From positions 1 through 37,472 of IMG/VR virus record IMGVR_UViG_3300025097_000019: a stretch of DNA of 37,472 nucleotides. One strand, 5' to 3'. This document shows, piece after piece, positions 1-35,529 of this stretch. This stretch comes from a virus. A model generated the notes under the pieces. The model had not been told where the DNA came from. It saw nothing but the letters and a program-made list of their open reading frames with translations, and did not search any database. A program made the position numbers and the translations under genes. Positions within the stretch are counted from its first letter, which is position 1. The number at the start of each line of letters is the position of its first letter.

Positions 1-672
1 CTTCGTGACATCGGTATCATACCTAATATTACTGTAGCGAACATAACAGATGATACAGCAGATAAATTAAAGAAATATTGTGGAGCAGTAGCAGTATCCT
101 GTTATGAAAATAAAGATATTTGCTATGATTCTGTAAAAAAATTAACAGACAGAGGGATGGATCAAATAAATATACATTATATGATCTGCGATGAAAGTTA
201 TGATAGAGCCTTAGAGGTTCTTAAAGATATAAAGAACGATGAAAGACTAGCTGAATTAAATGCTTTTGTTTTGCTGTCTCTAAAACAAAAAGGTGGAGGA
301 GAGAATTTTACGACTCTTTCTGAAGAAAAATTTAAAAACCTAGTGAATACAGCATTAGACGAAAAAATATCAATAGGATTTGATAGCTGTTCGTGCCACA
401 AATTTTTGGCATCAGTTAAAGATCATGATAATTATGATCAGTTTAAAATGAATGCTGAGCCATGCGAAAGTTCCTGCTTTAGTACTTATATCTCTGTAGA
501 CGCTGAATTTTTCCCCTGTTCCTTTGCAGAGGGAGTTAAAGGATGGAAAGATGGTTTAGATGTCGTTAATTGCGACAGCTTTATAAAAGACATCTGGAAC
601 CATCCAAGAACCATAGATTTCAGAAATAAACTATTGTCTAATTGTAGAAATTGCTTTTTGTTTAAAGTTTAA
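1..672 (+). CDS. radical SAM protein with SPASM-like C-terminal domain (partial, 5' end missing)
   Basis: The reading frame is open from base 1, so the start and the CxxxCxxC cluster motif of the radical SAM core lie outside the window; 223 codons plus stop are visible. The visible part has the end of a TIM-barrel-like domain (strand INIHYMICDE, then helix, then FVLLSLKQKG) followed by a Cys-rich tail: C-S-C in SCSCHKF, C..SC in EPCESSCFS, FPCSF and a terminal CRNC. This is the cysteine pattern of SPASM/twitch auxiliary Fe-S domains. Such enzymes reductively cleave S-adenosylmethionine and often modify peptides. Four genes with one shared N-terminal tag follow it, separated only by an HNH gene that looks inserted, so a peptide or protein substrate is plausible. 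Radical SAM membership is likely from the C-terminal pattern; the substrate is unknown. Confidence 0.75.
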   Translation, partial: LRDIGIIPNITVANITDDTADKLKKYCGAVAVSCYENKDICYDSVKKLTDRGMDQINIHYMICDESYDRALEVLKDIKNDERLAELNAFVLLSLKQKGGGENFTTLSEEKFKNLVNTALDEKISIGFDSCSCHKFLASVKDHDNYDQFKMNAEPCESSCFSTYISVDAEFFPCSFAEGVKGWKDGLDVVNCDSFIKDIWNHPRTIDFRNKLLSNCRNCFLFKV

Positions 673-688
673 TAAAGGAATTTCTTTG

Positions 689-743
689 TTTATCTCCTAT
701 AAAGTACATGGAACGAGCATCCATAAACTTTATAGGAGATAAA
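689..743 (+). promoter_or_regulatory. RNA hairpin hiding the ribosome binding site of the HNH gene
   Basis: Arms at 689-704 and 728-743 form a perfect 16-bp inverted repeat (TTTATCTCCTATAAAG / CTTTATAGGAGATAAA) with a 23-nt loop. The AGGAG ribosome binding site at 734-738 lies wholly inside the right arm and the ATG follows directly at 744. In RNA read through from the upstream gene the site would be paired and translation shut off. A transcript starting inside the loop would free it. This is the design known for T4 homing endonuclease genes such as I-TevI. Confidence 0.8.
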
Positions 744-1397
744 ATGAAGAAAGAATGTAAACTTTGTAATAAACTATTTACGACAAAATACAGTCATCAA
801 AAATTTTGTGACAAAAAGTGCAGGAATAAATTTTGGGCATTAGACTATTATTACAAAAATAAAGAAAAAATACTCAAAAAAATGAAGAGTAAAGAATATA
901 GAGCTAAAGAAAGGAAATATAAAAAACTTCCTAAAAACAAACAACATCGAAATGAATATTTGAGACAAAAAAGAAAAACAGATCCTTGTTGGAAATTAAA
1001 ATGTTGTGTTATAGATAGGATCAGGAAAGACAATAACATTGGTCATTTATTTAAAATGAAAAATTTAGAGTTAAACATCGGATACAAAATTGATGATCTA
1101 TGGTTGTATTTGAAATCCAATATTCAACCTACGTTTTCTGAAAAAGATTATTTATGTGGGAATTTAGAGATAGACCATATAATAGATTATCACTGGTTTT
1201 TATCGCTAAAACCAGGAGATGAAGAGTTTAAAAAATGTTGGGACATGAGAAATTTAAGACTAATAACAAAAAAAGAAAATCTTAAAAAATATAGGAAAAA
1301 AATGAATTGGGAAGAAATTAAAAAACTGGATATTATCGATTTGCTTCCAAGGGGAGCAGACGAGATATACAAGACGTTAGCCACATCGGAGAAATAA
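744..1397 (+). CDS. HNH homing endonuclease with N-terminal zinc finger
   Basis: A 217-aa protein. The ATG at 744 is preferred over an in-frame ATG at 708 because AGGAG stands 5 bases before it and the 708 start would lie inside the hairpin loop. Near the N terminus there is a four-cysteine finger (CKLC..FC..KC), then a Lys-rich helical linker. The HNH-like core is IDHIIDYHWF followed by NLRLITKKENL, where the Asp-His pair and the Asn fit the beta-beta-alpha metal fold. It probably makes a double-strand break that spreads its own gene. It lies between the radical SAM gene and the first tagged gene and ends one base before the next ATG, so it looks like an insertion into an older operon. It shares the CxxC..FC..xC finger with the endonuclease at 34837 and the intein at 23199. 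Confidence 0.8.
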   Translation: MKKECKLCNKLFTTKYSHQKFCDKKCRNKFWALDYYYKNKEKILKKMKSKEYRAKERKYKKLPKNKQHRNEYLRQKRKTDPCWKLKCCVIDRIRKDNNIGHLFKMKNLELNIGYKIDDLWLYLKSNIQPTFSEKDYLCGNLEIDHIIDYHWFLSLKPGDEEFKKCWDMRNLRLITKKENLKKYRKKMNWEEIKKLDIIDLLPRGADEIYKTLATSEK

Positions 1398-1398
1398 C

Positions 1399-1749
1399 AT
1401 GAAACAGAGAAACGGATTTGTAAGCAATAGTTCAAGTAGCTCTTTTGTCATTCTTATGGGTAAAGATTTTAACCTTACAGATGAACAGATACAAGATGCT
1501 ATAAATAAGAATTGCGACGAAGACAGAACTAATGTTGATGAAGTTAGAGCCAACATTGAATCATTAAAAGATGGTGGAGGTCTTTGGGACTATGACAACG
1601 CAGCATATAGCTCTGTAAAACAGTTATGCAGAGATTATGATTTAGTTATTGGTTCGATTGATGGAGGTCCAGAAGACGGTCAGATTATCAACGTACTAAC
1701 TGAAAATAATCTGCCGAAATTCAAGAAAGCGATAGAAAATGAAAATTAG
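1399..1749 (+). CDS. Ser-tagged protein 1, unknown function
   Basis: A 116-aa protein starting with the tag MKQRNGFVSNSSSSSF, shared almost exactly by the next three genes. After the tag comes a unique acidic domain with a VDEVRANIESLKDGGG helix and a DYDLVIGSIDGGPEDG strand-turn. No known family is recognised in this part. The coding sequence overlaps the next gene by 11 bases, so the two are probably translationally coupled. No membrane segment is seen and the tag is too polar to be a secretion signal. Uncharacterised phage and bacterial proteins with a similar start are known to me from memory, but no function for the tag is. Confidence 0.85.
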   Translation: MKQRNGFVSNSSSSSFVILMGKDFNLTDEQIQDAINKNCDEDRTNVDEVRANIESLKDGGGLWDYDNAAYSSVKQLCRDYDLVIGSIDGGPEDGQIINVLTENNLPKFKKAIENEN

Positions 1750-2119
1750 AAACGGTTTTGTTAGTAATAGTTCAAGTAGTTCTTTCGTTGTAGCTATTAA
1801 AAAAAATGACGCATGTCCTCATTGCGGAAGAAGCGATCCCAATATTTTAAAAGCTATTGAAAGGAAAGCATGTTATGGGGGAGAAACCGAACTTGAAGGC
1901 GTAGGTATAGATGCAGTTTTAGAGTATTCTGATCAAATATGCGAATATGGCGACTATAATAACGATAAAGCAGATAGAATAAGAGAAAAAGCTGCAACAT
2001 ACGGAAACGATTGGGAATTGGCTGTTTTTTATGTGTCTTATCACGATGAATTCATAAACCAAATGATAAAAGAGATGAAAGCAGCAGGAACAATAGAAAT
2101 TTTAGATGAAGAAGGTTAA
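1739..2119 (+). CDS. Ser-tagged protein 2, unknown function, CxxC motif
   Basis: A 126-aa protein beginning MKIRNGFVSNSSSSSF. The body differs from its neighbours: a CPHC motif right after the tag (residues about 25-28), two more cysteines in the middle, then an acidic C-terminal part with WELAVFYVSYHDEFINQMIKEMK. The CPHC pair could bind zinc or be redox active, but a clear second CxxC is missing. It starts inside the end of the previous gene and ends 2 bases before the next ATG, so it belongs to one operon with the other tagged genes. Confidence 0.85.
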   Translation: MKIRNGFVSNSSSSSFVVAIKKNDACPHCGRSDPNILKAIERKACYGGETELEGVGIDAVLEYSDQICEYGDYNNDKADRIREKAATYGNDWELAVFYVSYHDEFINQMIKEMKAAGTIEILDEEG

Positions 2120-2121
2120 AA

Positions 2122-2562
2122 ATGAAAATTAGAAACGGATTCGTAAGCAACAGTTCAACCAGTTCATTCCACATCTATGGGATATGCCTAGATGAAGGTG
2201 ATGAAATTGCAAACAGAATTAAAGAAAATGCTACAGATGAGATGAAAGAACTTCTGCTCACCAAAAACAATGAAGCCGCAGCGAAATCATCATACAGAGA
2301 TGCGTTTGATAGTTTTGAAGCATATATGGATCATTTCGAAGAAGATGATTACGAATTGTTATATGAGCTAGGAGATGCAATAGATCTTTCAATAAACCAC
2401 CCTGAATACTATGGCATTTACATTGGTATTGATCCAAGCGACATTGGCGACAACGAGACAGGCAAAGAGTTTAAAACTCGCGTAGAGGATCTTATCAAGT
2501 CTTTGCTTGGCGATGATATCAAAGGATTCGGTTGGCATGAAGAGGCTTGGAGAGACGGATAA
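2122..2562 (+). CDS. Ser-tagged protein 3, unknown function
   Basis: A 146-aa protein beginning MKIRNGFVSNSSTSSF; one Ser is replaced by Thr, so the hydroxyl at that place is kept. The body is strongly acidic (EEDDYELLYELGDAI, IGIDPSDIGDNETG) and ends FGWHEEAWRDG. It resembles small acidic phage proteins of unknown role and no family is recognised. Its TAA overlaps the next ATG (TAATG), so translation is likely coupled. At DNA level the tag region stays similar to the other copies while the rest does not align. Confidence 0.85.
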   Translation: MKIRNGFVSNSSTSSFHIYGICLDEGDEIANRIKENATDEMKELLLTKNNEAAAKSSYRDAFDSFEAYMDHFEEDDYELLYELGDAIDLSINHPEYYGIYIGIDPSDIGDNETGKEFKTRVEDLIKSLLGDDIKGFGWHEEAWRDG

Positions 2563-2951
2563 TGAAAACGAGAAATGGATTTGTAAGCAATAGTAGCTCA
2601 AGTAGTTTCATATGTGAGATTTGTGGAACGTTGGAAACAGGTTACAATTGCGGACCAGCAGAAGTTGGTTTTGAAGTTTGTGAACATGAACATATTTTTT
2701 GTAAGAAACATCTTGATAAAGTTGATAAAGAAATAACCTATAAAGAAGATGATTATTGGGGCGGTGAAGCTGTTACCGAAAATTGTTGCCCGATCTGTAC
2801 TCTAAAAAATATAGATGACTCTCTGTTATTGAGATATCTTATGAACAAACTCAATACAACAAGACAAGATACCGTAGACACAATACAACATAACTTCAAA
2901 GATTTAGCTGAACTGTTAAACAACTTAGAGGAATCTAGCACTAACAATTAG
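2562..2951 (+). CDS. Ser-tagged protein 4, Cys-rich, likely zinc-binding
   Basis: A 129-aa protein. The ATG at 2562 (sequence TAATG) is chosen over an in-frame ATG at 2547 because it places the tag MKTRNGFVSNSSSSSF at the very N terminus, as in the three genes before it. The body has many Cys and His residues: CEIC just after the tag, CEHEHIFCKKH, then CCPIC, a layout that fits two zinc sites as in RING or treble-clef folds. The C-terminal 45 residues are helical. It is the last of the four tagged genes. Confidence 0.85.
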   Translation: MKTRNGFVSNSSSSSFICEICGTLETGYNCGPAEVGFEVCEHEHIFCKKHLDKVDKEITYKEDDYWGGEAVTENCCPICTLKNIDDSLLLRYLMNKLNTTRQDTVDTIQHNFKDLAELLNNLEESSTNN

Positions 2952-3400: not shown

Positions 3401-4729
3401 ATGAAACTTATAAAAAACGCAAATGGTAAAACAACTGTAAAAATCAGCCATCAAGAATGGGTCCAAATCGGAAAAGAAGCTGGTTTTTGGGACAATGTTC
3501 AACAAGTAGGAAAAGGTGTAAAAGGCATAGGACAAGGAGCCTGGAATGCTGGTGCCGGAATCGTTGGTATCCTTGGAAATGCTTATAAAGGCTTAAGCAA
3601 CGGGATACAACAACTAAGAGCAAGAATACAACAAGGACAAGTTTCTAGACAGGAATATGGTCAATATAAACAAATGATAGAAGGCATGCAAAATGATTTG
3701 GCAGCAGCAGATGCTGAATTAGCCGCAATAGATCAACAAACAGCACAATCAAATCAACAAGCAGATCAAGCTGATGCTGACTATGCTGCGGCTCAACCAT
3801 CCTATGCCTCAGAAAAACCAATTAAACTCATTAAAAAAGCCAATGGCAAAACAACTATAAAACTTACAGAACAAGAATGGTTGGATATGGGGAAAAAAGC
3901 AGGATTTCCTGAAGCAGGACTAGAGGTTGATGACGAAAGATTTGATTATTATGTCCCAGGATTTGACACTATATTCCGAGGAGTTCAGAGAAATGATATA
4001 GAGATGGTACAGAGAGGAATTGATGCAGGAGCAAAACCAAATAGAATGATATTAGAGCAAGCGGTTCTTGGTCCAATGGGTATAAAACCTAATAAAGAAA
4101 TAATTACACTTTTACTTGAAGCTGGGGCTGTACCTACAGATGGCACGCTATCTAAAGCAGAACGTCAAAAAGATCCAGAAATGATTGAACTTATAAAAAG
4201 CTTTATGTATGAACCAAGAAATTATAATATAGCCTCGACAACTGCATCAACAAAACCAATTAGATTAATAAAAAAAGCCAATGGCAAAACAACTATAAAA
4301 ATAAACGAGAATAAATGGCAACAGATAGGATTAGCAAACGGTTGGATCAAAATAAAAACCGTTAAAACAGCAAATATAATACAACACAACCCACGACATA
4401 AAGAATACCCATACAACTTATTATGGAATCTTGATTATGAACAAGATCCTAGTGAACCTGATATAGCAGTAGAGTTTAACTATAAATGGGACGCTGGCTC
4501 TGACGGTGCATTTACTCAAGGAATAGCAGGTGTCGAACAAGGAAGACGTACAGAATCTGATCGTGAACCAGCATTCGACATAACTGCACTAAAAGTAACC
4601 GCTCAAGAAAACACAGTATATGGTCCTGCCGGTACAGATATCACAGAATCAATGGAGACTGGCCCGATAATTGAAATTATAGAAGACGCATTGTACGAAG
4701 AAAAAAGAAATGAAGAACTTGGCTACTAA
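3401..4729 (+). CDS. modular protein with three copies of a KLIKKANGKTTIKL module and an ankyrin-like segment
   Basis: A 442-aa protein containing three copies of a roughly 30-residue module, KxIKLIKxANGKTT[IV]K then EW..[IM]G..[AN]G[FW]. Copies start at about residues 1, 142 and 286. Copy 1 leads into a Gly-rich part and a Gln/Ala-rich coiled coil. Copy 2 leads into an ankyrin-like pair (NDIEMVQRGIDAGAKPN, then NKEIITLLLEAGAVP). Copy 3 leads into an unrecognised C-terminal domain. It reads like three small proteins, each starting with the same tag, fused into one. Copies 2 and 3 share an identical 30-base stretch, so the duplication is recent or kept by gene conversion. Virion or host targeting of the tag is possible but not shown. 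Confidence 0.85.
   Translation: MKLIKNANGKTTVKISHQEWVQIGKEAGFWDNVQQVGKGVKGIGQGAWNAGAGIVGILGNAYKGLSNGIQQLRARIQQGQVSRQEYGQYKQMIEGMQNDLAAADAELAAIDQQTAQSNQQADQADADYAAAQPSYASEKPIKLIKKANGKTTIKLTEQEWLDMGKKAGFPEAGLEVDDERFDYYVPGFDTIFRGVQRNDIEMVQRGIDAGAKPNRMILEQAVLGPMGIKPNKEIITLLLEAGAVPTDGTLSKAERQKDPEMIELIKSFMYEPRNYNIASTTASTKPIRLIKKANGKTTIKINENKWQQIGLANGWIKIKTVKTANIIQHNPRHKEYPYNLLWNLDYEQDPSEPDIAVEFNYKWDAGSDGAFTQGIAGVEQGRRTESDREPAFDITALKVTAQENTVYGPAGTDITESMETGPIIEIIEDALYEEKRNEELGY
3833..3862 (+). repeat. 30-bp direct repeat, copy 1
   Basis: Identical to 4271-4300. It encodes the core of the second KANGKTTIK module. A related, less exact copy is at the gene start (about 3414-3445). Confidence 0.85.
4271..4300 (+). 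repeat. 30-bp direct repeat, copy 2
   Basis: Identical to 3833-3862. It encodes the core of the third KANGKTTIK module. Confidence 0.85.
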
Positions 4730-4840: not shown

Positions 4841-6124
4841 ATGAAAATTATTAAAACAGCAGGATATAGAAAAAAAATATCTCAAAATGAATGGGAAGAC
4901 GACCGACTAGATCCAGAAGCTAGAGCTTTGATAGAACGCATGCAAGCTCACGCTGAACAAGTTAGAAAAGACAAAAAAGAAAATCCTGAAGCTTATGTTG
5001 TTGATCCACCTAAAACTCGTGATGATGTAATAATTAATCGAAAAGTAAAAGAATGGTCGATTAATGATTGGATAGAATATCTGTTTAACTGCATACCGAG
5101 TGGAGACAAAAACGCATATGGACTGATGTCTGAAATACCAGAACAAATGAAACAAAAAATTATTAATATTTTAGGAGAAGAAATATTCGAAATAGCAAAC
5201 CATGCTGATGTTTATGACGATGGTTGGGCGCAAGGCGATATAAGCGAAATGTTTAGAGCGGTTATATATGATTTTAATAGCTATTTTCAATCGAATAGCA
5301 TAGCTTCTGACATAATGGCAAAAACTATTTATGATAATTATTATGATGAAGAGGAACCAGATTGGGCGAAGAACACCATCCAAGAATTCTATAACATGTC
5401 TCCTTTCTATTTAAAAAAAGCACTTAATGTGTATTATCCCGATGTAAAAGAAACAGGTGAGGATGAGGATGATTATGACAGAAATGGTCCCGAAGAAGAC
5501 ATCCCTCCATCATGGGATTCAGGAGTCACACCAGAAGTTGAACAACGCGATTACGCTTATGCCTATACCTCTTATTATCGTCTAGTAAAAACAGCACAAT
5601 ACCAAAGAGAAGTAGCACAAAATGGCGAGGAAGATTCTTATGCAGTATCAGATAGTAAAATGTCATCCATTGACATCCAAAAAGCACTTCAAGATAAACC
5701 ACTAGAATGGATACAAGCCGTAAGCAGATTCCCTGCAATGCTTCAAAAAGAAATAATAGATGAACGCCCGAATCCCAACCAAGAGGATATTCAAGATATT
5801 AATTCATGGAAATTAATAGCAAATCAACCAGTTAAATATGAAATGACTCACTTATTAAGAAATGCGAATAATTTAAATTCCATAGCAAGATGTCCGGTTG
5901 ATGTGATTAAAGAAATAAATCAAAAATGGGGATTACAGATAGTTGCTGGAAAAGTTTACGATCAAAACCCCGGACGCTATAAAGACTATGCGACAAAATT
6001 TAAAGGAGAAACTGCTGAACCCTCTGTCATGGTGAACGATGAGATAATTTGGGGGGTAGGACGATTTATTTCTGCTTTATTACGAAAAGACCAAAACTTA
6101 ACTGTTTGGAATATAAAAAAATAA
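4841..6124 (+). CDS. large hypothetical protein with KTA-type N-terminal module repeated inside
   Basis: A 427-aa protein starting MKIIKTAGYRKKISQNEWEDD, a diverged form of the module in the previous gene (IK.A....K.S..EW). A second similar start, YRLVKTAQYQREVAQNGEED, appears at about residue 248 after an acidic, proline-containing linker, so the protein again looks like two tagged proteins joined. The middle is helical and acidic; the C-terminal half has many short helices and ends in a hydrophobic WGVGRFISALL segment. No family is recognised. The GGATAATA before the ATG gives a weak ribosome binding site. Confidence 0.8.
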   Translation: MKIIKTAGYRKKISQNEWEDDRLDPEARALIERMQAHAEQVRKDKKENPEAYVVDPPKTRDDVIINRKVKEWSINDWIEYLFNCIPSGDKNAYGLMSEIPEQMKQKIINILGEEIFEIANHADVYDDGWAQGDISEMFRAVIYDFNSYFQSNSIASDIMAKTIYDNYYDEEEPDWAKNTIQEFYNMSPFYLKKALNVYYPDVKETGEDEDDYDRNGPEEDIPPSWDSGVTPEVEQRDYAYAYTSYYRLVKTAQYQREVAQNGEEDSYAVSDSKMSSIDIQKALQDKPLEWIQAVSRFPAMLQKEIIDERPNPNQEDIQDINSWKLIANQPVKYEMTHLLRNANNLNSIARCPVDVIKEINQKWGLQIVAGKVYDQNPGRYKDYATKFKGETAEPSVMVNDEIIWGVGRFISALLRKDQNLTVWNIKK

Positions 6125-6540: not shown

Positions 6541-7452
6541 ATGTTTTACAAACAATGCAAACTAATAAAAAAGACAAAGAATGGCATGATCCAAGACGTT
6601 CGTTGGATTCCCGAAAAATATGCTAAAAGGAATAGTATCCTAGAGCTTCACATAGATGGAGAATGGGATGATGGTTGGAAAGTAATGTCTGTCGATAGTA
6701 GAATGGACGAAAAAGCTCTACTTGATAGAAAGAAAGCTCACAAGAAACAAGGCGAAGTCCTTATTACAACTAAATATTATGATGAAAAAAGATTAAGTGG
6801 AACAACTTATAGAGAGCTAAAAAGAAAATGCTTTGAATTTGGTTTAGATTACGAATCTTTAAAAAGATATAAAGCAGTTAAAGATATTAATAAGTTAGAA
6901 TTATTAAACGCTGTAAAAACATCTGTTAGTATAAGAGAGGTTCTTGGAAAACTTGGATTCGATAAAAATCATGGAAGTAAATATTCCGCTATCAAAAAAT
7001 TAATTGATACTTTTGATATAAACATAGATCATTTTACAGGTATGCTTTGGTCAAAAGGTAAAACTAGATTTACAGATGAAAGGATAAATAGACAAGGAAA
7101 GAAGACAGAAACTCCATGGGACGAAGCGTTTGCTAAAGGAAGCAGTGCGAAAACACATTCTTTAATGAAAAGACTTATTTTAAGTAAAAAAAGAGAATAT
7201 AGATGTTCAATTTGTGGGATTAATACATGGAGCAATAAACCATTGCGATTAAGATTGGATCACATAGATGGAGACTGTTGCAATAACGAAGAAGGTAATT
7301 TGCGATTATTGTGCCCGAATTGTGATGCTCAAACTGATACGTTTTGTAGAGGAAAACGAGCAAAAAATTTAACTCATAAATGGTGGGAGGATTTAACCGA
7401 TTTAGGAGTTAAAATAAAATCTAAATCTGAACAAAAAATAAAAACACGATAA
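6541..7452 (+). CDS. HNH endonuclease fused to a small phage protein; 3' end frameshifted
   Basis: A 303-aa protein. Residues 1 to about 75 (MFYKQCKLIKK..VRWIPEKYAK..DDGWKV) look like a separate small phage protein that I have seen stand alone. Residues about 80-160 hold helical DNA-binding repeats of the kind found in homing endonucleases. The HNH core is at about 222-275: CSIC, LRLDHIDGDCCNN, NLRLLCPNCDAQT. It nicks or cuts DNA for homing. The ribosome binding site AAGGAAAG is directly behind the tRNA-like element. The stop at 7450 falls in an A-rich stretch, and the expected C-terminal zinc-ribbon plus helix-turn-helix is found in another frame just downstream, so the gene seems to have lost its last domain by frameshift. 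Confidence 0.8.
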   Translation: MFYKQCKLIKKTKNGMIQDVRWIPEKYAKRNSILELHIDGEWDDGWKVMSVDSRMDEKALLDRKKAHKKQGEVLITTKYYDEKRLSGTTYRELKRKCFEFGLDYESLKRYKAVKDINKLELLNAVKTSVSIREVLGKLGFDKNHGSKYSAIKKLIDTFDINIDHFTGMLWSKGKTRFTDERINRQGKKTETPWDEAFAKGSSAKTHSLMKRLILSKKREYRCSICGINTWSNKPLRLRLDHIDGDCCNNEEGNLRLLCPNCDAQTDTFCRGKRAKNLTHKWWEDLTDLGVKIKSKSEQKIKTR

Positions 7453-7698: not shown

Positions 7699-7773
7699 GC
7701 CCTCGTAGGCAAAATGGAGAAAGTCACTTGGTTTAGGTCCAAGATATTGCAAGTTCGAATCTTGTCGAGGGTA
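7699..7773 (+). tRNA. tRNA-Leu-type anticodon UAG on a short-variable-arm body
   Basis: The acceptor arms GCCCTCG / CGAGGGT pair with a G-T at the first position. The anticodon arm is CTTGG-TTTAGGT-CCAAG with anticodon TAG. The T arm is GCAAG-TTCGAAT-CTTGT and the discriminator is A. The variable region is only 5 bases, although bacterial leucine tRNAs normally have a long variable arm, so the identity is uncertain. CCA is not encoded. Confidence 0.75.
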
Positions 7774-7776
7774 TAT

Positions 7777-7847
7777 GACTCATTGGGCAAGTGGTAAGTC
7801 GGTTCTCTGCAAAAGAACAGACCCCAGTTCGATTCTGGGATGGGTCT
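7777..7847 (+). tRNA. tRNA-Cys (GCA)
   Basis: The acceptor is GACTCAT / ATGGGTC. The anticodon arm is GTTCT-CTGCAAA-AGAAC (GCA) and the T arm CCCAG-TTCGATT-CTGGG. The discriminator is U, the known cysteine identity base. CCA is not encoded. Confidence 0.9.
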
Positions 7848-7854
7848 TTAAATT

Positions 7855-7940
7855 GGATGGTCAAGCCGATAGTTGGCGACGGCACCTGTTTTGAAAACAG
7901 ACGAGCGAAAGCCTTACAGGTTCGACCCCTGTACCATCCG
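7855..7940 (+). tRNA. tRNA-Ser (UGA)
   Basis: The acceptor is GGATGGT / ACCATCC. The anticodon loop is TTTGAAA (TGA) on a CTGT/ACAG stem. The long variable arm expected for serine is present (GAGCGAAAGCC region). The T arm is ACAGG-TTCGACC-CCTGT and the discriminator is G. Confidence 0.9.
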
Positions 7941-7946
7941 TTTAAT

Positions 7947-8084
7947 TAACAGACTAACTGAAAATAGTTGGCGAAAATGGCAAACGCAGAATTGCAAGCA
8001 CGTATGTGTGATTTCCTAGCTGTGAAGGTAAAACCACAGTATATTGGTTCGAGTCCAGTACCATTTTCTAACGTTAGTCTGTTA
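7947..8084 (+). repeat. 12-bp inverted repeat bracketing one tRNA-like gene
   Basis: TAACAGACTAAC at 7947-7958 is the exact reverse complement of 8073-8084. The two arms enclose the divergent tRNA at 7962-8067 with a few bases to spare on each side. They would close a long stem around the tRNA in the precursor and may guide or block end processing. Confidence 0.75.
7962..8067 (+). tRNA. divergent tRNA with enlarged anticodon arm, identity unclear
   Basis: The D arm (GCGAAAATGGCAAACGC) matches those of the leucine tRNAs in this cluster. The T arm is ATTGG-TTCGAGT-CCAGT. The acceptor AAATAGT / ACCATTT has one A-C mismatch but can extend outward by two more pairs. A class II-type variable arm (CTGT..ACAG, with inner GGT/ACC) is present. 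About 31 bases take the place of the 17-base anticodon arm and no standard 7-base loop with U33 is clear, so the anticodon cannot be named. It could be decayed or carry a short insertion like the tRNA at 8270. Confidence 0.5.
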
Positions 8085-8087
8085 TTT

Positions 8088-8174
8088 GGAACGATGGCAG
8101 AGTGGATTATTGCGCGACACTGCTAATGTCGTTGGCCTGAAAGGGTCACGTAGGTTCGAATCCTACTCGTTCCG
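8088..8174 (+). tRNA. tRNA-Ser (GCU)
   Basis: The acceptor is GGAACGA / TCGTTCC. The anticodon arm is CGACA-CTGCTAA-TGTCG (GCT). A long variable arm is present, the T loop is TTCGAAT and the discriminator is G. Confidence 0.92.
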
Positions 8175-8180
8175 TTACAC

Positions 8181-8261
8181 GCTCCTATGGCGAAATGGCA
8201 ACCGCTCAGATTTCAAAAGTCTGTACCTTCGGGTTTACTTGTTCGAATCAAGTTAGGAGTA
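8181..8261 (+). tRNA. tRNA-Leu (CAA)
   Basis: The acceptor is GCTCCTA / TAGGAGT with a G-T first pair. The anticodon loop is TTCAAAA (CAA). The variable arm is of class II type with a TTCG loop. The T arm is ACTTG-TTCGAAT-CAAGT and the discriminator is A. Confidence 0.9.
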
Positions 8262-13239: not shown

Positions 13240-13782
13240 ATGAAAAAAATAGCACTAACATTGATAATCGCTTTAGTCCTTTGTTCTGGATGTTACGAGT
13301 TTTACTTCAACGATACGCCAGATAGCTCGATTACTCCTCAAGCAACACCAGTAGAAGATATAGGTGAGCCTATTTTTGAAGAGCCGATAACTATTGAAAA
13401 CCTTGTGGTAGACAATCGTAATAAAACAGAAAAGATAGACAGCCTTGAGAGGGTAGCAAAGCAGAAGCAAAAAGTTCTTGAAAATATCGTCGCTGAGAGC
13501 AATAAGATAAAAAATGGGGTCAATGCCATAAAAACTATAGCAAAGACCACAGAACCAACCACAAAGCCTTCTATAGAGCCTTATTTAAAGACTATTGGCG
13601 ACAGTTCTGACAAAATAAACGATTTAGTCACTAGTCCTATTGAAAACATTGTTCCTATAGACATTCCTTTTGAACCGACTCCATATAACAATATTTGGGA
13701 AAGTCCGAAGTTTTGGTTAGGTTTGATCTTTGGTCTTTTGGGAGTAGGTTTAATCGTTAAATTTACGTTTTTCAAAAATTAG
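13240..13782 (+). CDS. candidate unimolecular spanin (lipoprotein with C-terminal membrane segment)
   Basis: A 180-aa protein. The ATG at 13240 (GGAG 12 bases upstream) gives a clean lipoprotein signal: MKK, hydrophobic ALTLIIALVL, then CSGC with the lipidated Cys at 18. The -3 residue is Cys instead of the usual Leu. Residues about 50-100 are a helical, coiled-coil-like segment, followed by a Pro/Thr-rich linker. Residues 159-176 (WLGLIFGLLGVGLIVKF) are a membrane segment at the C terminus. One protein with an outer-membrane lipid anchor and an inner-membrane segment is the design of u-spanins such as phage T1 gp11, which fuse the two membranes at the end of lysis. The gene lies next to the muramidase. 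An in-frame start at 13195 is less likely. Its 3' end overlaps the opposed Nudix gene by 11 bases. Confidence 0.65.
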   Translation: MKKIALTLIIALVLCSGCYEFYFNDTPDSSITPQATPVEDIGEPIFEEPITIENLVVDNRNKTEKIDSLERVAKQKQKVLENIVAESNKIKNGVNAIKTIAKTTEPTTKPSIEPYLKTIGDSSDKINDLVTSPIENIVPIDIPFEPTPYNNIWESPKFWLGLIFGLLGVGLIVKFTFFKN

Positions 13783-14329
13783 ACATTATTCTTACAAACA
13801 TACCGCTATAAAGCCAACCTTTAGCAGACCATTTAACCGTTTCATCATCTATTAAATCAGCCACTTGTTTAGTATTTAAAACAAGTATTTCTATATCTTC
13901 AGCAGATTCATTTTTTTCGGTAGAAGGTTCTCCCTCGACTTCTGCAAAAACCATAGCCACTGTTTCGTCTGTGAGTCCTGCTGAATTGTATGTTGGAGGG
14001 CTAACGGTCAGAATCTTTTTTACCTTCATGCCTGTTTCTTCTTCGAATTCTCTTTTAGCTGTATCTTCTACTGTCTCTCCTTCATCTATAAGTCCAGCAG
14101 GGAATTCTAGAATATAATCGCCAACAGGAACTCTATATTGTTTGATTAGAACTAATCTATGAGGATCTCTCATCAAACCAACGATCATAACGGCATCGCA
14201 TCCTTCAGGTTCTGTAGTTGATCTGCTCACATAGGTCCACTTTCCTTCTTTGCCTTCATGTTCATATGTTGCTTCCATAAGGTTCAAGAACGGACGTTCT
14301 GTGATTACTTCTCGTTTAGTTGTTTTCAT
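13772..14329 (-). CDS. Nudix hydrolase, ADP-ribose pyrophosphatase type
   Basis: A 185-aa protein. The start at 14329 is chosen because AAGGATAAA precedes this ATG; a longer in-frame version would begin before it. The Nudix box is complete at about 79-101: GLIDEGE, seven residues, REFEEETGM. The segment SPPTYNSAGLTDE after the box and VPVGDYILEFPAG before it are typical of ADP-ribose pyrophosphatases (NudF family), which split ADP-ribose into AMP and ribose 5-phosphate in a Mg-dependent reaction. It lies on the same strand downstream of nadE and pncB, which links it to NAD+ turnover. Other nucleoside diphosphate substrates are possible. Confidence 0.85.
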   Translation of the reverse strand: MKTTKREVITERPFLNLMEATYEHEGKEGKWTYVSRSTTEPEGCDAVMIVGLMRDPHRLVLIKQYRVPVGDYILEFPAGLIDEGETVEDTAKREFEEETGMKVKKILTVSPPTYNSAGLTDETVAMVFAEVEGEPSTEKNESAEDIEILVLNTKQVADLIDDETVKWSAKGWLYSGMFVRIMSNF

Positions 14330-14388
14330 TTTATCCTTTATTTGAGTTTTTAACAATGGGCATCCTTCTGCCGGTACCAAATGCGACT

Positions 14389-14874: not shown

Positions 14875-16596
14875 TTAACGTTTCTTAAAAACTATTGGAA
14901 CTCTTCTCGATGTACCGAACGAAACTTTTGATACTTTGATACCGGGAGCGGCTTGTCGGCGTTTGAATTCTGTACGATCAACCAACGATATCATTCTATC
15001 GTATTGAGCTTTTGCGTTTGGCGTTACAGCCCAGACTTTTACTTCTTCTGGGAGGTCATCAGTACTTATGAATTCATAGAAATCGCCGATATAACATTCG
15101 ATGTATGCATAAAGAATCGGATCTAAGATTTCGTATGGCAATAAATTGTCATCATCTTTTTGATCAGGAGCAAGTTCTGCACTTGGCGGTTTCCTTATGA
15201 TGTTAACAGGGATTAACTCTTTCTTATTTTTCTTATTGAAGTATTCAGCTAAAGCATAAACGATGGTTTTGTAAACATCATTGATAGGAGCGAATCCTCC
15301 GCACATATCTCCATAGATTGTGCAGTAGCCGACTGACAATTCAGATTTATTGCCTGTACTGAGAGGAAGCATACCAAAAGCGTTAGAAGCATGCATTACG
15401 GCTGCTCCGCGAATTCTAGCTTGCATATTTTGGTCTGCTACATCATTATAGCCTTTATAGCCTTTATCGTCTTTGATCTTGGCAAAGACTTTATTGTATT
15501 CGCTCAACAATTCTATATGTTTGATTGGAAGAAGAGAATCGTTGAATTGAAGATTCTTTTGCAATTTTTTTGCATCGTCTAAGGAGTGATCGCTACTGTG
15601 GATGCTTGGCATTCTTATTCCGTAAACATTTTCTGCTCCGATAGCATCGCAAGCTAATGCTGCAATTACGGCTGAATCGATTCCGCCAGAGCTTCCGAAA
15701 ACGACAGAGTTGAATCCGCTCTTTTTGATATAATCTCTCAATCCGAGAATGAGCATATCCCAAAGTAATCCAATCGGATCTTCTTCACTTCCCTTTACCT
15801 TCTCCATTACGTCTACATCTATATAGTGTTCGTTACCTGTCGTACAGACATGGGACGTAGATTTGATAGTTCTTTCTGCCTTATACGTAACTCTACCAGT
15901 TTCTACGATAAGACTGTGACCATCAAAAACTAGATCGTCTTGACCGCCAATTTGGTTGACATAGATCAAAGTCCCTTTCGCAAAACTTTCTCTTAACGTT
16001 TTAATTCGTTCGGCAGGCTTTCCCATAACATACGGAGAGCTATTGATGCTAATAATGTTATGAATGCCCATTTCACGATATTGAGCGAGAGGATTAGTTT
16101 TATAGTTATAATCGTCGGTATCTTTATCGTTCCAAATATCTTCGCATATTGCTAATCCCCATTTTTCTCCGTCTATTTCGACAACCGCTAATTTATTGCC
16201 AGGTTCGAAATATCGCCCTTCGTCAAACACATCGTAGAACGGTAACAGTTGTTTTTGGTATCGAGCTACAACTGTCCCGTTTTTTATAACTGCAAGCATG
16301 TTACGGAAAGGTTTACCTCGACCATTATAATTCTTGTCGATGTATCCAACAACGGTAGAGTATTGACTTCCAGCCGAGAACGTAACGATCTCTTGTAACC
16401 ATCTTAAATTCTGTTCAACAAAATCGTGGTTGTACATTAGATCTTTTACAAGGTATCCTGGAATTGAAAGTTCAGGCGTTACGACCAAACTGATAGTCGT
16501 ATCAGCACGAGCCGTTTCCATTGCAAGTTTAATTTGGTCTGTATTGCTTTGAAAATCCAAAGGCGTAGTATTGGTTTGTGCGATTACTATTTTCAT
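14875..16596 (-). CDS. nadE: glutamine-dependent NAD+ synthetase
   Basis: A 573-aa protein, full length for the two-domain type. It makes NAD+ from nicotinate adenine dinucleotide, ATP and glutamine in the cytosol. The N-terminal nitrilase-like glutaminase domain has its triad: Glu42 (TPELSIPG), Lys115 (YQKQLLPF), Cys151 (LAICEDIW). The synthetase domain has the ATP PP-loop GSSGGIDSAV at 301-310, then STGNKSELSVGY and KPPSAELAPDQKDDD. All key residues are present, so it should be active. It overlaps the end of pncB by one base (TAATG), which shows one operon. Neither domain looks truncated. Confidence 0.95.
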   Translation of the reverse strand: MKIVIAQTNTTPLDFQSNTDQIKLAMETARADTTISLVVTPELSIPGYLVKDLMYNHDFVEQNLRWLQEIVTFSAGSQYSTVVGYIDKNYNGRGKPFRNMLAVIKNGTVVARYQKQLLPFYDVFDEGRYFEPGNKLAVVEIDGEKWGLAICEDIWNDKDTDDYNYKTNPLAQYREMGIHNIISINSSPYVMGKPAERIKTLRESFAKGTLIYVNQIGGQDDLVFDGHSLIVETGRVTYKAERTIKSTSHVCTTGNEHYIDVDVMEKVKGSEEDPIGLLWDMLILGLRDYIKKSGFNSVVFGSSGGIDSAVIAALACDAIGAENVYGIRMPSIHSSDHSLDDAKKLQKNLQFNDSLLPIKHIELLSEYNKVFAKIKDDKGYKGYNDVADQNMQARIRGAAVMHASNAFGMLPLSTGNKSELSVGYCTIYGDMCGGFAPINDVYKTIVYALAEYFNKKNKKELIPVNIIRKPPSAELAPDQKDDDNLLPYEILDPILYAYIECYIGDFYEFISTDDLPEEVKVWAVTPNAKAQYDRMISLVDRTEFKRRQAAPGIKVSKVSFGTSRRVPIVFKKR

Positions 16597-17762
16597 TATT
16601 TAATTCCTAATGTAGTTTTGCAAAGTTCGATTGCTTCGATTGCTCCTGTATGTTTTCCTCTAACATCAGAAAGCTTGCATGTATTAACCCAAGGTTCTTG
16701 ACCGTTAGGTTGAGCCGCTATCATTTTAATAACTATGTTAAGAGGCTTTACTCCAACATCGTTGGAAAAATGTGTTCCGATGCCGTAACCGTCTTTAATC
16801 TTTCCTTTGCAGAATTCATGAATCCTTTTTACTTCATCGACGTTTAGTCCATCGGAGAAGATGATAGTTTTCGACAACGGATCGATTCCAAGTCTTTTGT
16901 AGTGAGCGATAGTTTTATTTGCGAAAACTATAGCATCATCGGAATCATGTCTTACTCCATCGAATAGTTTAGCATACATCATGTCAAACGATTTGAAGAA
17001 GTCATCGGTTGTGAATGTATCTGTCAATGCAATACCAAGATCGCCGTGATAGACATCAACCCATCGTCCAAGAGCGATTGAGTTAGCCATTCTGTATCCG
17101 TATTTAGCGGCGTGGAACATAATCCATTCGTGAGCTTCTGTCCCAATGGGCTTAACTCCGTAGAGGTATGCCAAAAGAACGTTACTTGTTCCAATGAAAG
17201 TTTTCGATGTTTTCAATTCGTTAACGACATAATCGTGGACTCTGAGAGAAAAGCGTCTACGACTACCGAAATCAGCGAAGTACGCTCCCATTTCTTCAAG
17301 TCTTTTGCCTTTCTTTCTGGCGATTTCTTCATAGTTGTCATTGGGCTTTTGTCCTGTCATTTCGAAATATAACTCGCTAATGAGAGACATAAGAGGAACT
17401 TCCCAATAGATTGTGCTGTACCATGGACCTTCTATGATGACGCTAAGTTCTCCAGCATCATTTTGCCATATTACTACTTCTTCTGGATTATATTTATATT
17501 TTACGAAAAAATCTATATAAGGGTTAGAAAGAAATGGGCAATTGATTTTTAACCATGCTATTTGAGAGGCATTCAAATCAGGGAGATATGCCATTTCATC
17601 TACTGCTTCTCTGAGTTTTTTTGCGAATCCTTCTGGGAAGACAGTCCCGCCTCGATTGAAGAGAGAATACTTTACATTAGCATTTGGGTATAATTTGACT
17701 ACAGCAGCACCCATTGTAATCTTGTAAAGATCATTATCTAATTTTGATGTTATTCTAGCCAT
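16596..17762 (-). CDS. pncB: nicotinate phosphoribosyltransferase
   Basis: A 388-aa protein. It joins nicotinate to phosphoribosyl pyrophosphate to give nicotinate mononucleotide, the first Preiss-Handler step of NAD+ salvage. The motifs seen are LDNDLYKITMG at the N terminus, DFGSRRRFS at 164-172, GTSNVLLA at 191-198, GTEAHEW at 207-213, GVRHDSDD and FSDGLN, all in the order of the PncB family. AGAAAGGAT precedes the ATG. It is the first gene of the minus-strand operon with nadE; the adenylyltransferase (nadD) that would link the two steps is not in this window and may come from the host. Confidence 0.92.
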   Translation of the reverse strand: MARITSKLDNDLYKITMGAAVVKLYPNANVKYSLFNRGGTVFPEGFAKKLREAVDEMAYLPDLNASQIAWLKINCPFLSNPYIDFFVKYKYNPEEVVIWQNDAGELSVIIEGPWYSTIYWEVPLMSLISELYFEMTGQKPNDNYEEIARKKGKRLEEMGAYFADFGSRRRFSLRVHDYVVNELKTSKTFIGTSNVLLAYLYGVKPIGTEAHEWIMFHAAKYGYRMANSIALGRWVDVYHGDLGIALTDTFTTDDFFKSFDMMYAKLFDGVRHDSDDAIVFANKTIAHYKRLGIDPLSKTIIFSDGLNVDEVKRIHEFCKGKIKDGYGIGTHFSNDVGVKPLNIVIKMIAAQPNGQEPWVNTCKLSDVRGKHTGAIEAIELCKTTLGIK

Positions 17763-18923: not shown

Positions 18924-19427
18924 ATGATAAATGCTTTTGTGGGAGACATAGTTGACGTACATACAGACGTAATAGTCAATGCTGCTAATGGCATTGGTGT
19001 TATGGGGGGAGGAGTTGCAGGATCTATTCGGCGTGCTGGTGGTATAGAAATACAAAATGAAGCGAGAAGGATATGCAAAAATAAGAATAAAGAAGCTGGC
19101 GAATGTTACGTGACTGGACCCGGCGATCTGTCTACAAATAGTGTAAAATATATTTATCATGCCGTAACCATGAGATATCCTGGTGGATATACAAGTCTAA
19201 ATATAATTTCGAAAGCGATAAAAAGCGTGTTTGAGCGATTATTATTAGATGATATAAAATCTGTGGCTATGACAGCGTTGGGAACTGGAGTAGGATCTTT
19301 AGAATATTCTTTGGTTGCAAACATAATGGTAAAACATGCTAAAGAATACGATAACATACTTGAAATATACTTTGTAGACAAAAATGAAAACTTCATAAAT
19401 AAGGTTAACAGTATTCTAGAGAAATGA
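18924..19427 (+). CDS. macro domain protein (ADP-ribose binding or hydrolysing)
   Basis: A 167-aa protein made of one macro domain. It has GDIVDVHTDVIVNAANGIG at 7-25, the glycine loop MGGGVAGSIRRAGG at 27-40 and the phosphate loop TALGTGVGSLEYS at about 114-126, all expected in this fold. The Asn pair in VNAAN and the GGGV loop fit members that hydrolyse ADP-ribosyl bonds or O-acetyl-ADP-ribose. In a phage it may remove ADP-ribose marks or clear ADP-ribose derived signals. Its last 4 bases overlap the HNH gene (ATGA). Confidence 0.92.
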   Translation: MINAFVGDIVDVHTDVIVNAANGIGVMGGGVAGSIRRAGGIEIQNEARRICKNKNKEAGECYVTGPGDLSTNSVKYIYHAVTMRYPGGYTSLNIISKAIKSVFERLLLDDIKSVAMTALGTGVGSLEYSLVANIMVKHAKEYDNILEIYFVDKNENFINKVNSILEK

Positions 19428-20077
19428 CAACACAAACCAATAATAATATAATAAATAGTCCTACGCTTGTTCTAAACAAAAGCTTAGATGCTATTGGTTT
19501 TACACCTCTGTATAAAACATTAAATAAAGTATTTTCTTTTCGTGCAAAATACGTAGATAACGAAACGTTTCAACATTTGACATGGAGCGATTGGTCCGAC
19601 CTCTTTTCAATTCCCATTGAGGATGATGAATCTATTTACGGAGATTATCAATGGCTTAACGTTAATAGATTTAAAGTTAGACTTCCAAGAATTGTTGTCC
19701 TTCAAAAATACAATAAAATTCCCCACACTAGAGTTAGACTTACAAGACGAAATCTTTTAATTAGAGATGGATACAGATGTCAATATACCGCCAAAAAAGT
19801 AACTTCTAGAACTGGAACAATAGATCACATTATGCCAAAATGTCGCGGTGGATTAACTACATGGGATAATGTCGTTATCTCGACTTTTGAAGTTAATGTT
19901 GAAAAAGGAGGAAGAACTCCTGAAGAAGCAGGGCTTAAGTTGCTTAGTACTCCCAGAGAACCTCATTGGAATCCCTTATATACCTTTGGTCAAAAACTTC
20001 CAAAAGAATGGAAATATTTCGTTCGTACTGACCAGTGGAACGAATTTGGTTATTGGGACGTAGAGTTAGAACCATAG
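19424..20077 (+). CDS. HNH endonuclease lacking the zinc cysteines
   Basis: A 217-aa protein. Residues about 105-165 follow the HNH family pattern: LIRDGYRCQYTAKKVT, TIDHIMPKCRGGLTTWDNVV, then ISTFEVNVEKGGRTPEEAG. The catalytic DH pair and the second Asn are kept, but the usual CxxC knuckles that hold the structural zinc are replaced (CQYT and STFE). The N-terminal 100 residues are unlike standard homing enzymes and contain LVLNKSLDAIGFTPL, a common start in this subgroup. The start overlaps the macro domain stop. It may be a packaging- or repair-related nuclease instead of a homing enzyme. Confidence 0.75.
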   Translation: MTTQTNNNIINSPTLVLNKSLDAIGFTPLYKTLNKVFSFRAKYVDNETFQHLTWSDWSDLFSIPIEDDESIYGDYQWLNVNRFKVRLPRIVVLQKYNKIPHTRVRLTRRNLLIRDGYRCQYTAKKVTSRTGTIDHIMPKCRGGLTTWDNVVISTFEVNVEKGGRTPEEAGLKLLSTPREPHWNPLYTFGQKLPKEWKYFVRTDQWNEFGYWDVELEP

Positions 20078-26233: not shown

Positions 26234-26968
26234 ATGAGAGGAGCCAAAAAAATAGATATTACTGGTAAAAAGTTTGGAACATTAACAGTTGTCAGCGTAG
26301 ACGAGAACACACGTATTAAAAGAAACAGCAATTCGACTTATTGGTTATGTAAATGCGATTGCGGTCGGATGAAAAGTTATAGAAGCGATGTTTTAAGGAA
26401 ATATACACCTAAATCTTGTGGATGTGCTAGTTTATTTGTTAAAATTGGTGATAAATTTGGAAATCTAACTGTTATTTCTAGACTAAAAAATAACAAAAGA
26501 ACTATTTATTGGAATACTAAATGTGCTTGTGGGAAAGAGATTATAGTCAGTTCACATGCGTTAAAATCGGGTAGAAAATCTTGTGGATGCTTAGAAAACC
26601 CTAGCGGAAGCAGACATCCATCTTTTATCGGGATAGAGGATATCTCAGGAACAACAATAGGCAGAATACAAAGAAACGCAGAAACTCGTGATATAGAACA
26701 TAATGTTGATAAAAAATATATATGGGATTTATTTTTAGCTCAAAACAAAAAATGTGCGTTAACTGGTATGGATATACAATTTGGGCAGCAAAGCCGAAAA
26801 AAAGAAAAAGTACGAGAAGAAACTGCATCTTTAGATCGTATTGATAATTCATTAGGATATATAGAAGGAAACGTACAATGGGTCCATAAAGACATTAATA
26901 AAATGAAGAATAATCATTCATTAGAATATTTTAAAAAATTATGCAAATTAGTTTCAGAACACAAATAG
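26234..26968 (+). CDS. HNH homing endonuclease with two DNA-binding repeats
   Basis: A 244-aa protein. Two copies of a repeat lie in the N-terminal half: GKKFGTLTVVS..CKCDCG..SCGC (about 9-63) and GDKFGNLTVIS..CACG..SCGC (about 73-125). Such repeats contact DNA in phage homing enzymes. The HNH core is at about 175-225: KCALTG, SLDRIDNSLGYIEGNVQWVH, KDINKMKN. It lies between nrdJ and the dUTPase and is the full-length relative of the short gene at 14389. Its ribosome binding site is sequestered in a hairpin, which suggests late-only expression. Confidence 0.85.
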   Translation: MRGAKKIDITGKKFGTLTVVSVDENTRIKRNSNSTYWLCKCDCGRMKSYRSDVLRKYTPKSCGCASLFVKIGDKFGNLTVISRLKNNKRTIYWNTKCACGKEIIVSSHALKSGRKSCGCLENPSGSRHPSFIGIEDISGTTIGRIQRNAETRDIEHNVDKKYIWDLFLAQNKKCALTGMDIQFGQQSRKKEKVREETASLDRIDNSLGYIEGNVQWVHKDINKMKNNHSLEYFKKLCKLVSEHK

Positions 26969-34836: not shown

Positions 34837-35529
34837 ATGAATAAGATAAAAGGATTATGTAAAAAATGTTTAATTTGTGAAACAGAATTTAGATCAGATG
34901 TTCATAAAAGAAAGTATTGTTCTGAAGAGTGTTTTAAAGAGTCTGTAAAAATAAGACAAAAAAAATACTTAAAAGACAATAAAAAAGAGATACGAAAACG
35001 ACGAACAACATGTAAATATTGTGGCAATAGTTTTAAAGTCCATGAATTAAAAAATAGATGTTGTGGTGGAGAACAGTGTCAAGAAGATCGCAAAAAAGAG
35101 AAATCTAAATTAGCACAAAAAAGACATTACAATAGAAATGTAAAAAAGACAACTAATAAATTTAAAAAAAGAGACGCAGAGAATGCTAGAAATTACAGAA
35201 AAAACCATCAAGAAGAAATAAACAAAAGGGACAGATTAAGGAAAAAAGAAAAAAGAAATTGGGTCAATAGTATAAAAAAGAAATCTAAATGCGAAAAATG
35301 CAACGAAGAAAAATGGTTTTGTTTAGATTTCCACCATAAAGATCCAACACAAAAAGATTTTACTATATCTAATTGTATTTCTATGGGATATGGTAAAAAA
35401 CGCATATTAAAAGAAATAGAAAAATGTATTGTTTTATGTAGTAATTGTCATAGGCATCTACATTACTTAGAATTAAATGAGAAAGAATGGAAACTAACAA
35501 ACGAATGGCTTAACAAAGGTAAATTATGA
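34837..35529 (+). CDS. HNH homing endonuclease with two zinc fingers
   Basis: A 230-aa protein. It has two N-terminal four-cysteine fingers: CLIC..YCSEEC at about 11-33 and CKYC..CCGGEQC at about 55-75. A very basic helical linker follows. The HNH core is at about 150-205: CEKC, CLDFHHKDPTQKDF, then CIVLCSNCHRHLHYLE. It is a fingered relative of the gene at 744. Its stop overlaps the next start by 4 bases (ATGA), so it seems fitted into the operon. A weak pairing CCAAAT / ATTTGG covers part of its GGAG site, much weaker than the hairpins at 689 and 26173. Confidence 0.85.
   Translation: MNKIKGLCKKCLICETEFRSDVHKRKYCSEECFKESVKIRQKKYLKDNKKEIRKRRTTCKYCGNSFKVHELKNRCCGGEQCQEDRKKEKSKLAQKRHYNRNVKKTTNKFKKRDAENARNYRKNHQEEINKRDRLRKKEKRNWVNSIKKKSKCEKCNEEKWFCLDFHHKDPTQKDFTISNCISMGYGKKRILKEIEKCIVLCSNCHRHLHYLELNEKEWKLTNEWLNKGKL

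Follow-up and report, generated by a model that had tools for sequence, protein, structure and literature searches.

What does a radical S-adenosylmethionine (SAM) enzyme do beside a row of unrelated proteins that all begin with the same short peptide? The question is raised by one end of a linear virus contig of 37,472 bases (IMG/VR record IMGVR_UViG_3300025097_000019, positions 1 to 37,472), referred to below as the window. There, the 3' part of a radical SAM/SPASM gene and an HNH homing-endonuclease-like gene precede four genes that overlap or almost touch and whose products begin with MKxRNGFVSNSS(S/T)SSF, a tag located at the extreme N-terminus (Table 1). The tag family beside the radical SAM/SPASM gene is real, and a degenerate tag pattern gave no match in 100 dinucleotide shuffles. 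Past the tag, the four cargoes show no significant similarity among themselves, and each has relatives in other phages that are likewise tag-borne; the cargoes of tagged proteins 2 and 3 are 81% and 77% identical, respectively, to tagged proteins of a related phage, L206. We conclude that enzyme and tag most probably form a two-part protein-marking system, in which the radical SAM enzyme would recognise and modify a matching N-terminal tag.

Co-occurrence was assessed with contigs chosen by the enzyme alone or by the tag alone. Among enzyme-chosen contigs of at least 60 kb, a tag was found in 39 of 40 for class A, the enzyme class of the window, and in 9 of 10 for class B, a branch 29–31% identical to class A; the reversed tag pattern had no match in all 50 enzyme-chosen contigs. 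Conversely, 35 of 50 tag-chosen contigs (28 of the 35 that are at least 100 kb long) encode the enzyme, mostly with expect values (E) below 1e-60. Fifty controls, comprising 11 named large phages (T4, RB69, KVP40, Aeh1, Aeromonas 25, S-PM2, phiKZ, G, SPO1, RaK2 and CcrColossus) and 39 random-14-mer contigs, contained neither the enzyme nor a genuine tag, the two pattern matches among them not being the peptide. The corresponding Fisher p-values of 9e-25 and 4e-15 apply to contigs that are interrelated, not phylogenetically independent and in many cases fragments, and to random controls that are shorter on average. Within the T4-like phages, RB16 (enzyme RB16p156; tagged proteins RB16p106 and RB16p111) and KP27 each carry the enzyme plus two tagged genes, and T4, RB69 and KVP40 carry neither. 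Nicotinamide phosphoribosyltransferase was tried as a control bait and dropped, as it had too few relatives.

The same pairing is present in bacterial chromosomes. At least 188 class B relatives were detected in the bacterial genome scan, mostly in gut or rumen Clostridia and also in Bacteroidales, Anaerolineaceae and others. In 69 of the 80 bacterial loci kept, a tagged gene adjoins the enzyme gene, either 10–50 bases downstream or about 390 upstream of it. In an evenly drawn sample of 250 Lachnospiraceae genomes, the tag occurred in four and the enzyme in six; all four tag genomes were shared, and the other two enzyme matches were partial (Fisher p 9e-8, or 4e-6 minus the genome used as centre). 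Among the neighbours of the bacterial loci, no protease, transporter or other third component is generally conserved. A small helix-turn-helix protein lies near the enzyme in 18 of these loci (e.g. L432:9983-10288) and is a possible local regulator. The co-occurrence beyond chance on which the initial annotation had staked its proposal was thus found, strongly, in phages as well as in bacteria.

Enzyme and tag also match by class. Class A enzymes accompany the tag RxGFVSNSSSSSF (47 loci with A tags, none with B), and class B enzymes accompany RxDFVTNSSSSSF, the B tags being near the enzyme at 93 loci (20 phage, 73 bacterial) and A tags at none of these. Of the 345 A and B tags, 343 lie on the strand of the enzyme. 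A third tag, RxGVFETNSSSxHS, was first seen beside two class B loci and then scanned for alone. At 119 loci bearing this class C tag, the sole widespread non-tag neighbour was a radical SAM protein (78 loci, median gap 18 bp). In the reverse direction, 62 of 80 class C enzyme loci had a C tag within 6 kb (66 by a laxer pattern) and none had an A or B tag, while strand was shared by 120 of 120 class C tags. Carriers of class C include the Lak megaphages and Microcystis phage LMM01, and one phage, IMGVR_UViG_3300027374_000478, holds both B and C systems with each enzyme beside its own tags; among named phage isolates, the class B enzyme had no match at E 1e-20. At one locus (L605:3216-4577, plus strand; G410:C1), a class C enzyme is fused in frame to a C tag and cargo as one 454-codon frame, a single case in which a stop codon may have been lost. 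A phage system with one tag, as first annotated, was therefore too narrow a description: the pairing holds, and it extends to bacteria and to at least three enzyme/tag classes. Separately, some loci (L217, L183, L187 and others) have an enzyme with no tag in reach, and no obvious fourth tag was seen there by eye.

The tag behaves as a peptide module. It is 16–18 residues long and contains no Cys, and its core, F-x-(S/T)-N-S-S, is invariant. Both AGY and TCN codons are used at every Ser position, indicating that selection acts on the peptide and not on the DNA; a DNA-level element was excluded as an explanation on this ground. Conservation within the search pattern is partly imposed by the pattern itself, but R at −3, K at −5 and F/Y at +9 are conserved outside it and likely mark recognition residues. 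Homologous cargoes carry the tag of their own genome's enzyme class. Window gene 4 belongs to a CxxC/CPxC family whose members bear either an A or a B tag (one such A/B pair, E 2e-27), and another family has an A tag in L235 and a C tag elsewhere (37% identity, E 1e-16). The tag therefore follows the enzyme and not the cargo. One L240 protein, script-sorted as class B and truly class C, was set aside from this comparison. In L211 (IMGVR_UViG_3300032007_000006), a genome with a class A enzyme, the tag takes a form with Cys, RTCFVSNSS, which is present in four copies far from the enzyme.

Alternatively, the tag could serve localisation or expression and have nothing to do with the enzyme, which would simply share its accessory islands. 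Both are indeed accessory genes of large phages, 15 of the 50 tag contigs lack the enzyme, and the two are far apart in RB16-like phages. Such hitch-hiking would not be expected to produce exclusive matching in three independent classes, homologous cargoes with exchanged tags, genes only tens of bases apart, an enzyme–tag fusion and a pairing that recurs on bacterial chromosomes, and we consider it very improbable.

The 462 unique tagged proteins fall into about 148 cargo families, 105 of which were seen once. They range from 44 to 919 amino acids, have a median net charge of −8 per 100 residues and include a membrane-like segment in a single case; the cargo is diverse, cytosolic and acidic. 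A model of tagged protein 4 (predicted local distance difference test, pLDDT, 86) has a poorly ordered start (first ten residues, pLDDT 52), with the end of the tag running into the first strand. A RING identity for its cargo was suggested by a structure search and not used, the matches being non-significant (E >0.4). LRR_5 repeats, a beta-propeller and a BRCT domain are among the cargoes seen in bacteria, and interaction-type domains of this kind raise the possibility that tagged proteins dock on the enzyme as adaptors or targets while its actual substrate is a small molecule or a host protein. Binding alone could account for a constant, class-matched tag. However, the roughly 148 unrelated families have the tag alone in common, one enzyme with many tagged proteins is the usual enzyme/substrate layout, and every residue of the core is nearly invariant, with Ser/Thr kept at fixed places. 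Docking without modification is therefore unlikely.

Profile searches agree with the initial reading of the upstream gene as a radical SAM protein with a Cys-rich auxiliary-cluster domain. The window enzyme scores 21.9 bits against PF13186 (SPASM; cut-off 21.5), matches phage family phrog_7293 with E 2.6e-68 and is 59% identical to the full-length class A enzyme of L166. Its SPASM-like Cys-rich region is encoded at about 463–654. The CxxxCxxC part lies beyond the contig edge for the window copy and is present in full-length relatives, in which the first spacing of the Cys triad is longer in many class A/B members. PF04055 was matched by six of nine enzyme family members, and a class B member reached 27.2 bits against TIGR04085 (cut-off 27). 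Classes A and B are classified here as radical SAM/SPASM enzymes, which would cleave SAM reductively. The class C enzyme, of about 300 amino acids, corresponds to phrog_16999 ('Fe-S oxidoreductase'); with the three radical-SAM Cys only and no other conserved Cys, it does not qualify as a SPASM protein. All three classes are nonetheless homologous by profile (hhalign; C versus A 98.9%, C versus B 98.5%). In L604 (G412:C1:126000-133000), a class C radical SAM gene with an intein-like insert forms a 709-codon frame.

An AlphaFold2 model of the L166 class A enzyme, built with 60 homologues, was of high confidence (pLDDT 96; predicted template modelling score, pTM, 0.93). The nearest solved structures are CteB, TigE, BlsE, DesII, PqqE, EpeE and BtrN, at TM-scores of about 0.5 and 10–14% identity; four of these are maturases of ribosomally synthesised and post-translationally modified peptides (RiPPs). 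A sequence search of the PDB gave no match for class A and, at best, E 0.01–0.08 for class B. Many radical SAM models show weak similarity below their cut-offs, which could be taken to mean that an ordinary cofactor or nucleoside enzyme of the queuosine, MoaA or viperin type lies beside unrelated genes. Yet none of the NCBIfam equivalogs came near its cut-off, the queuosine, MoaA and viperin scores being far below, and the enzyme is linked to the tag; we give this explanation scarcely any credence. The firm grouping with queuosine or cofactor pathways that the initial annotation had allowed for did not emerge, the fold being nearest to peptide maturases.

In the marking system that we favour, the enzyme would bind the constant N-terminal tag (MKxRxGFVSNSSSSSF here) on several unrelated cytosolic proteins from neighbouring genes and would use a 5'-deoxyadenosyl radical on the tag core. 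The tag would then be a portable recognition and modification module, its cargo being swappable and the tag itself having to match the enzyme class of the genome. Recognition of a constant tag on different cargoes, as originally proposed, is supported by co-occurrence and class matching; we infer that the tag is modified by the enzyme and not just bound. EpeE-type epimerases use a Cys thiol as hydrogen donor. Because the tag contains no Cys, a thioether is unlikely, and because class C additionally has neither auxiliary-cluster Cys nor a hydrogen-donor Cys, our guess is that the chemistry either oxidises Phe, Ser, Thr or Asn or links such residues within the tag. If all classes share this chemistry, an auxiliary iron-sulfur cluster would not be essential, since class C has the triad Cys only. 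As to purpose, phage proteins may be marked for a common fate or partner, with localisation, stability and recognition by a shared partner as candidate roles. More broadly, and only tentatively, a hitherto unrecognised, general protein-tagging system of bacteria and their viruses can be envisaged, in which at least three radical SAM classes would chemically convert a Ser-rich N-terminal tag on a wide range of unrelated cytosolic proteins into a new mark, and a phage would mark a whole set of its proteins at once.

Several observations weigh against a system that modifies its tag. No modification has been observed. A winged-helix RiPP recognition element (RRE) was not found in the L166 model, in which residues 1–45 form strands only, leaving the enzyme without the classical RiPP recognition domain. 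In RB16/KP27-like phages, the tagged genes are about 20 kb from the enzyme. Eight of the 15 tag contigs without a class A enzyme are shorter than 100 kb, and some of the 15 have other radical SAM genes that are not beside the tags. Finally, auxiliary-cluster content differs between classes A/B and class C, and their chemistry may differ too. Tagged genes were noted in large phage contigs (L012, L041, L048, L085 and others) with no recognised class A enzyme or any radical SAM match; these contigs may be fragments, the host may supply the enzyme or a further class may exist.

The HNH gene was initially thought to have split an older enzyme–substrate operon. It does sit between enzyme and tagged genes, and no HNH gene lies between them in L206, where the tag array begins 13 bases after the enzyme gene (the L206 enzyme belongs to a different branch of class A from that of the window). 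It separates two genes, however, and splits no single one: the 3' end of the window enzyme is complete, as in relatives ending 'CRxCPLFKV'. A split enzyme gene, an intron (none by Rfam) and an early-ending enzyme were accordingly discarded. The HNH reading frame matches HNH_3 below cut-off only. A related HNH (42% identity) occupies the same enzyme–tag interval in L203, and an RNA hairpin covers the ribosome-binding site of the window gene; hairpins of this kind are known for phage homing endonucleases. The hairpin is part of the inserted HNH module and lies outside the enzyme/tag system. Together, the L206 arrangement, the L203 relative and the hairpin suggest that the HNH gene was probably inserted between enzyme and substrate genes.

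Table 1. Features of the window (1-based positions; tag positions are those of the coding sequence)
Feature	Position	Strand	Remarks
Radical SAM/SPASM enzyme gene, class A, phrog_7293	1..672	+	C-terminal 223 amino acids (3' two-thirds); 5' part beyond contig start
RNA hairpin covering HNH ribosome-binding site (AGGAG)	689..743	+	−27 kcal/mol, z −8.1
HNH homing-endonuclease-like gene	744..1397	+	Longest open reading frame from 708; start most likely 744
Tagged protein 1, 116 amino acids	1399..1749	+	Tag MKQRNGFVSNSSSSSF at 1399-1446
Tagged protein 2, 126 amino acids	1739..2119	+	Tag MKIRNGFVSNSSSSSF at 1739-1786; 11-bp overlap with gene 1
Tagged protein 3, 146 amino acids	2122..2562	+	Tag MKIRNGFVSNSSTSSF at 2122-2169
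Tagged protein 4, 129 amino acids	2562..2951	+	Tag MKTRNGFVSNSSSSSF at 2562-2609; cargo with CxxC...CxxH...CPxC
Two proteins with a repeated motif, approximately KLIKKANGKTTIK...W..IG	3401-4729, 4841-6124	+	Three copies in one protein; a related one opens the next
HNH-like or homing-type genes (by eye)	6541-7452, 19424-20077, 26234-26968, 34837-35529		In addition to the gene at 744
Five clustered transfer RNA genes	7699-8261	+	Leu, Cys, Ser, Ser, Leu
NadE-like NAD synthase, nicotinamide phosphoribosyltransferase-like and Nudix genes	14875-17762, 13772-14380	-	Adjoining; by eye, looks like a phage NAD+ (nicotinamide adenine dinucleotide) salvage set
Ribonucleotide reductase reading frame, 1280 amino acids	22311-26153	+	Apparent intein (CFSGDTLIAV...), unusual end FALQ|C

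Elsewhere in the window, the repeated KLIKKANGKTTIK...W..IG motif is perhaps a second constant module; the remaining features are listed in Table 1.

If the proposed marking is correct, a class of radical SAM enzymes would serve as a general N-terminal protein-marking machine in lytic phages (Lak megaphages, T4-like Klebsiella/Enterobacter phages, a cyanophage) and in gut Clostridia. Two large phage families labelled 'unknown' or generically, along with hundreds of tagged orphan proteins, would gain a function, and a new post-translational chemistry on a short portable tag would be of use in protein engineering. Why phages should mark sets of proteins would become a testable question, the pair being carried by the E. 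coli laboratory phage RB16. The enzyme families are already catalogued as phrog_7293 and phrog_16999, with annotations that give no substrate, tag or pairing. A text search across 5.39 million open-access papers, with subscription papers outside its scope, returned neither the tag sequence nor an account of the pairing, and the review 'Jumbo phages' (PMC7824862) makes no mention of radical SAM.

How, then, does the system compare with known ones? It is of the enzyme-plus-linked-substrate kind and resembles RiPP maturases with a constant leader, a nearby substrate with a leader-like constant N-terminus being present, yet it fails the other defining RiPP features tested, namely a short precursor, a protease or exporter and an RRE. 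In a classical RiPP pathway, the tag would be the leader and the remainder the core, with a protease and an exporter releasing the product. The constant N-terminus with a variable remainder, the many precursors per enzyme and the peptide-maturase-like fold would fit. The neighbourhoods hold no conserved protease or transporter, however, and cargoes of up to 919 amino acids with folded domains, the near-absence of membrane-like segments and a model lacking the N-terminal recognition domain make this pathway quite improbable. CteB, TigE, PqqE and EpeE share with the present enzymes the superfamily, the nearest predicted folds and a linked substrate with a constant N-terminus; they differ in that TM-scores here are only about 0.5, the cargoes are unrelated and 44–919 amino acids long, RRE, protease and exporter are lacking and class C is without auxiliary Cys.

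Side chains of full-size proteins are modified by anaerobic sulfatase maturase (anSME), which can act on Ser, and by QhpD, each with one defined partner family and an internal site. Here, in contrast, one N-terminal tag is spread across many unrelated cargoes; the tag has no C/S-x-P-x-R motif, and the profile match to anSME (TIGR03942) is weak (E 0.08). Prochlorosins and proteusins likewise combine one enzyme with several precursors that have a constant leader and a hypervariable remainder. Unlike those remainders, the cargoes described here belong to folded, conserved families that recur with different tags.

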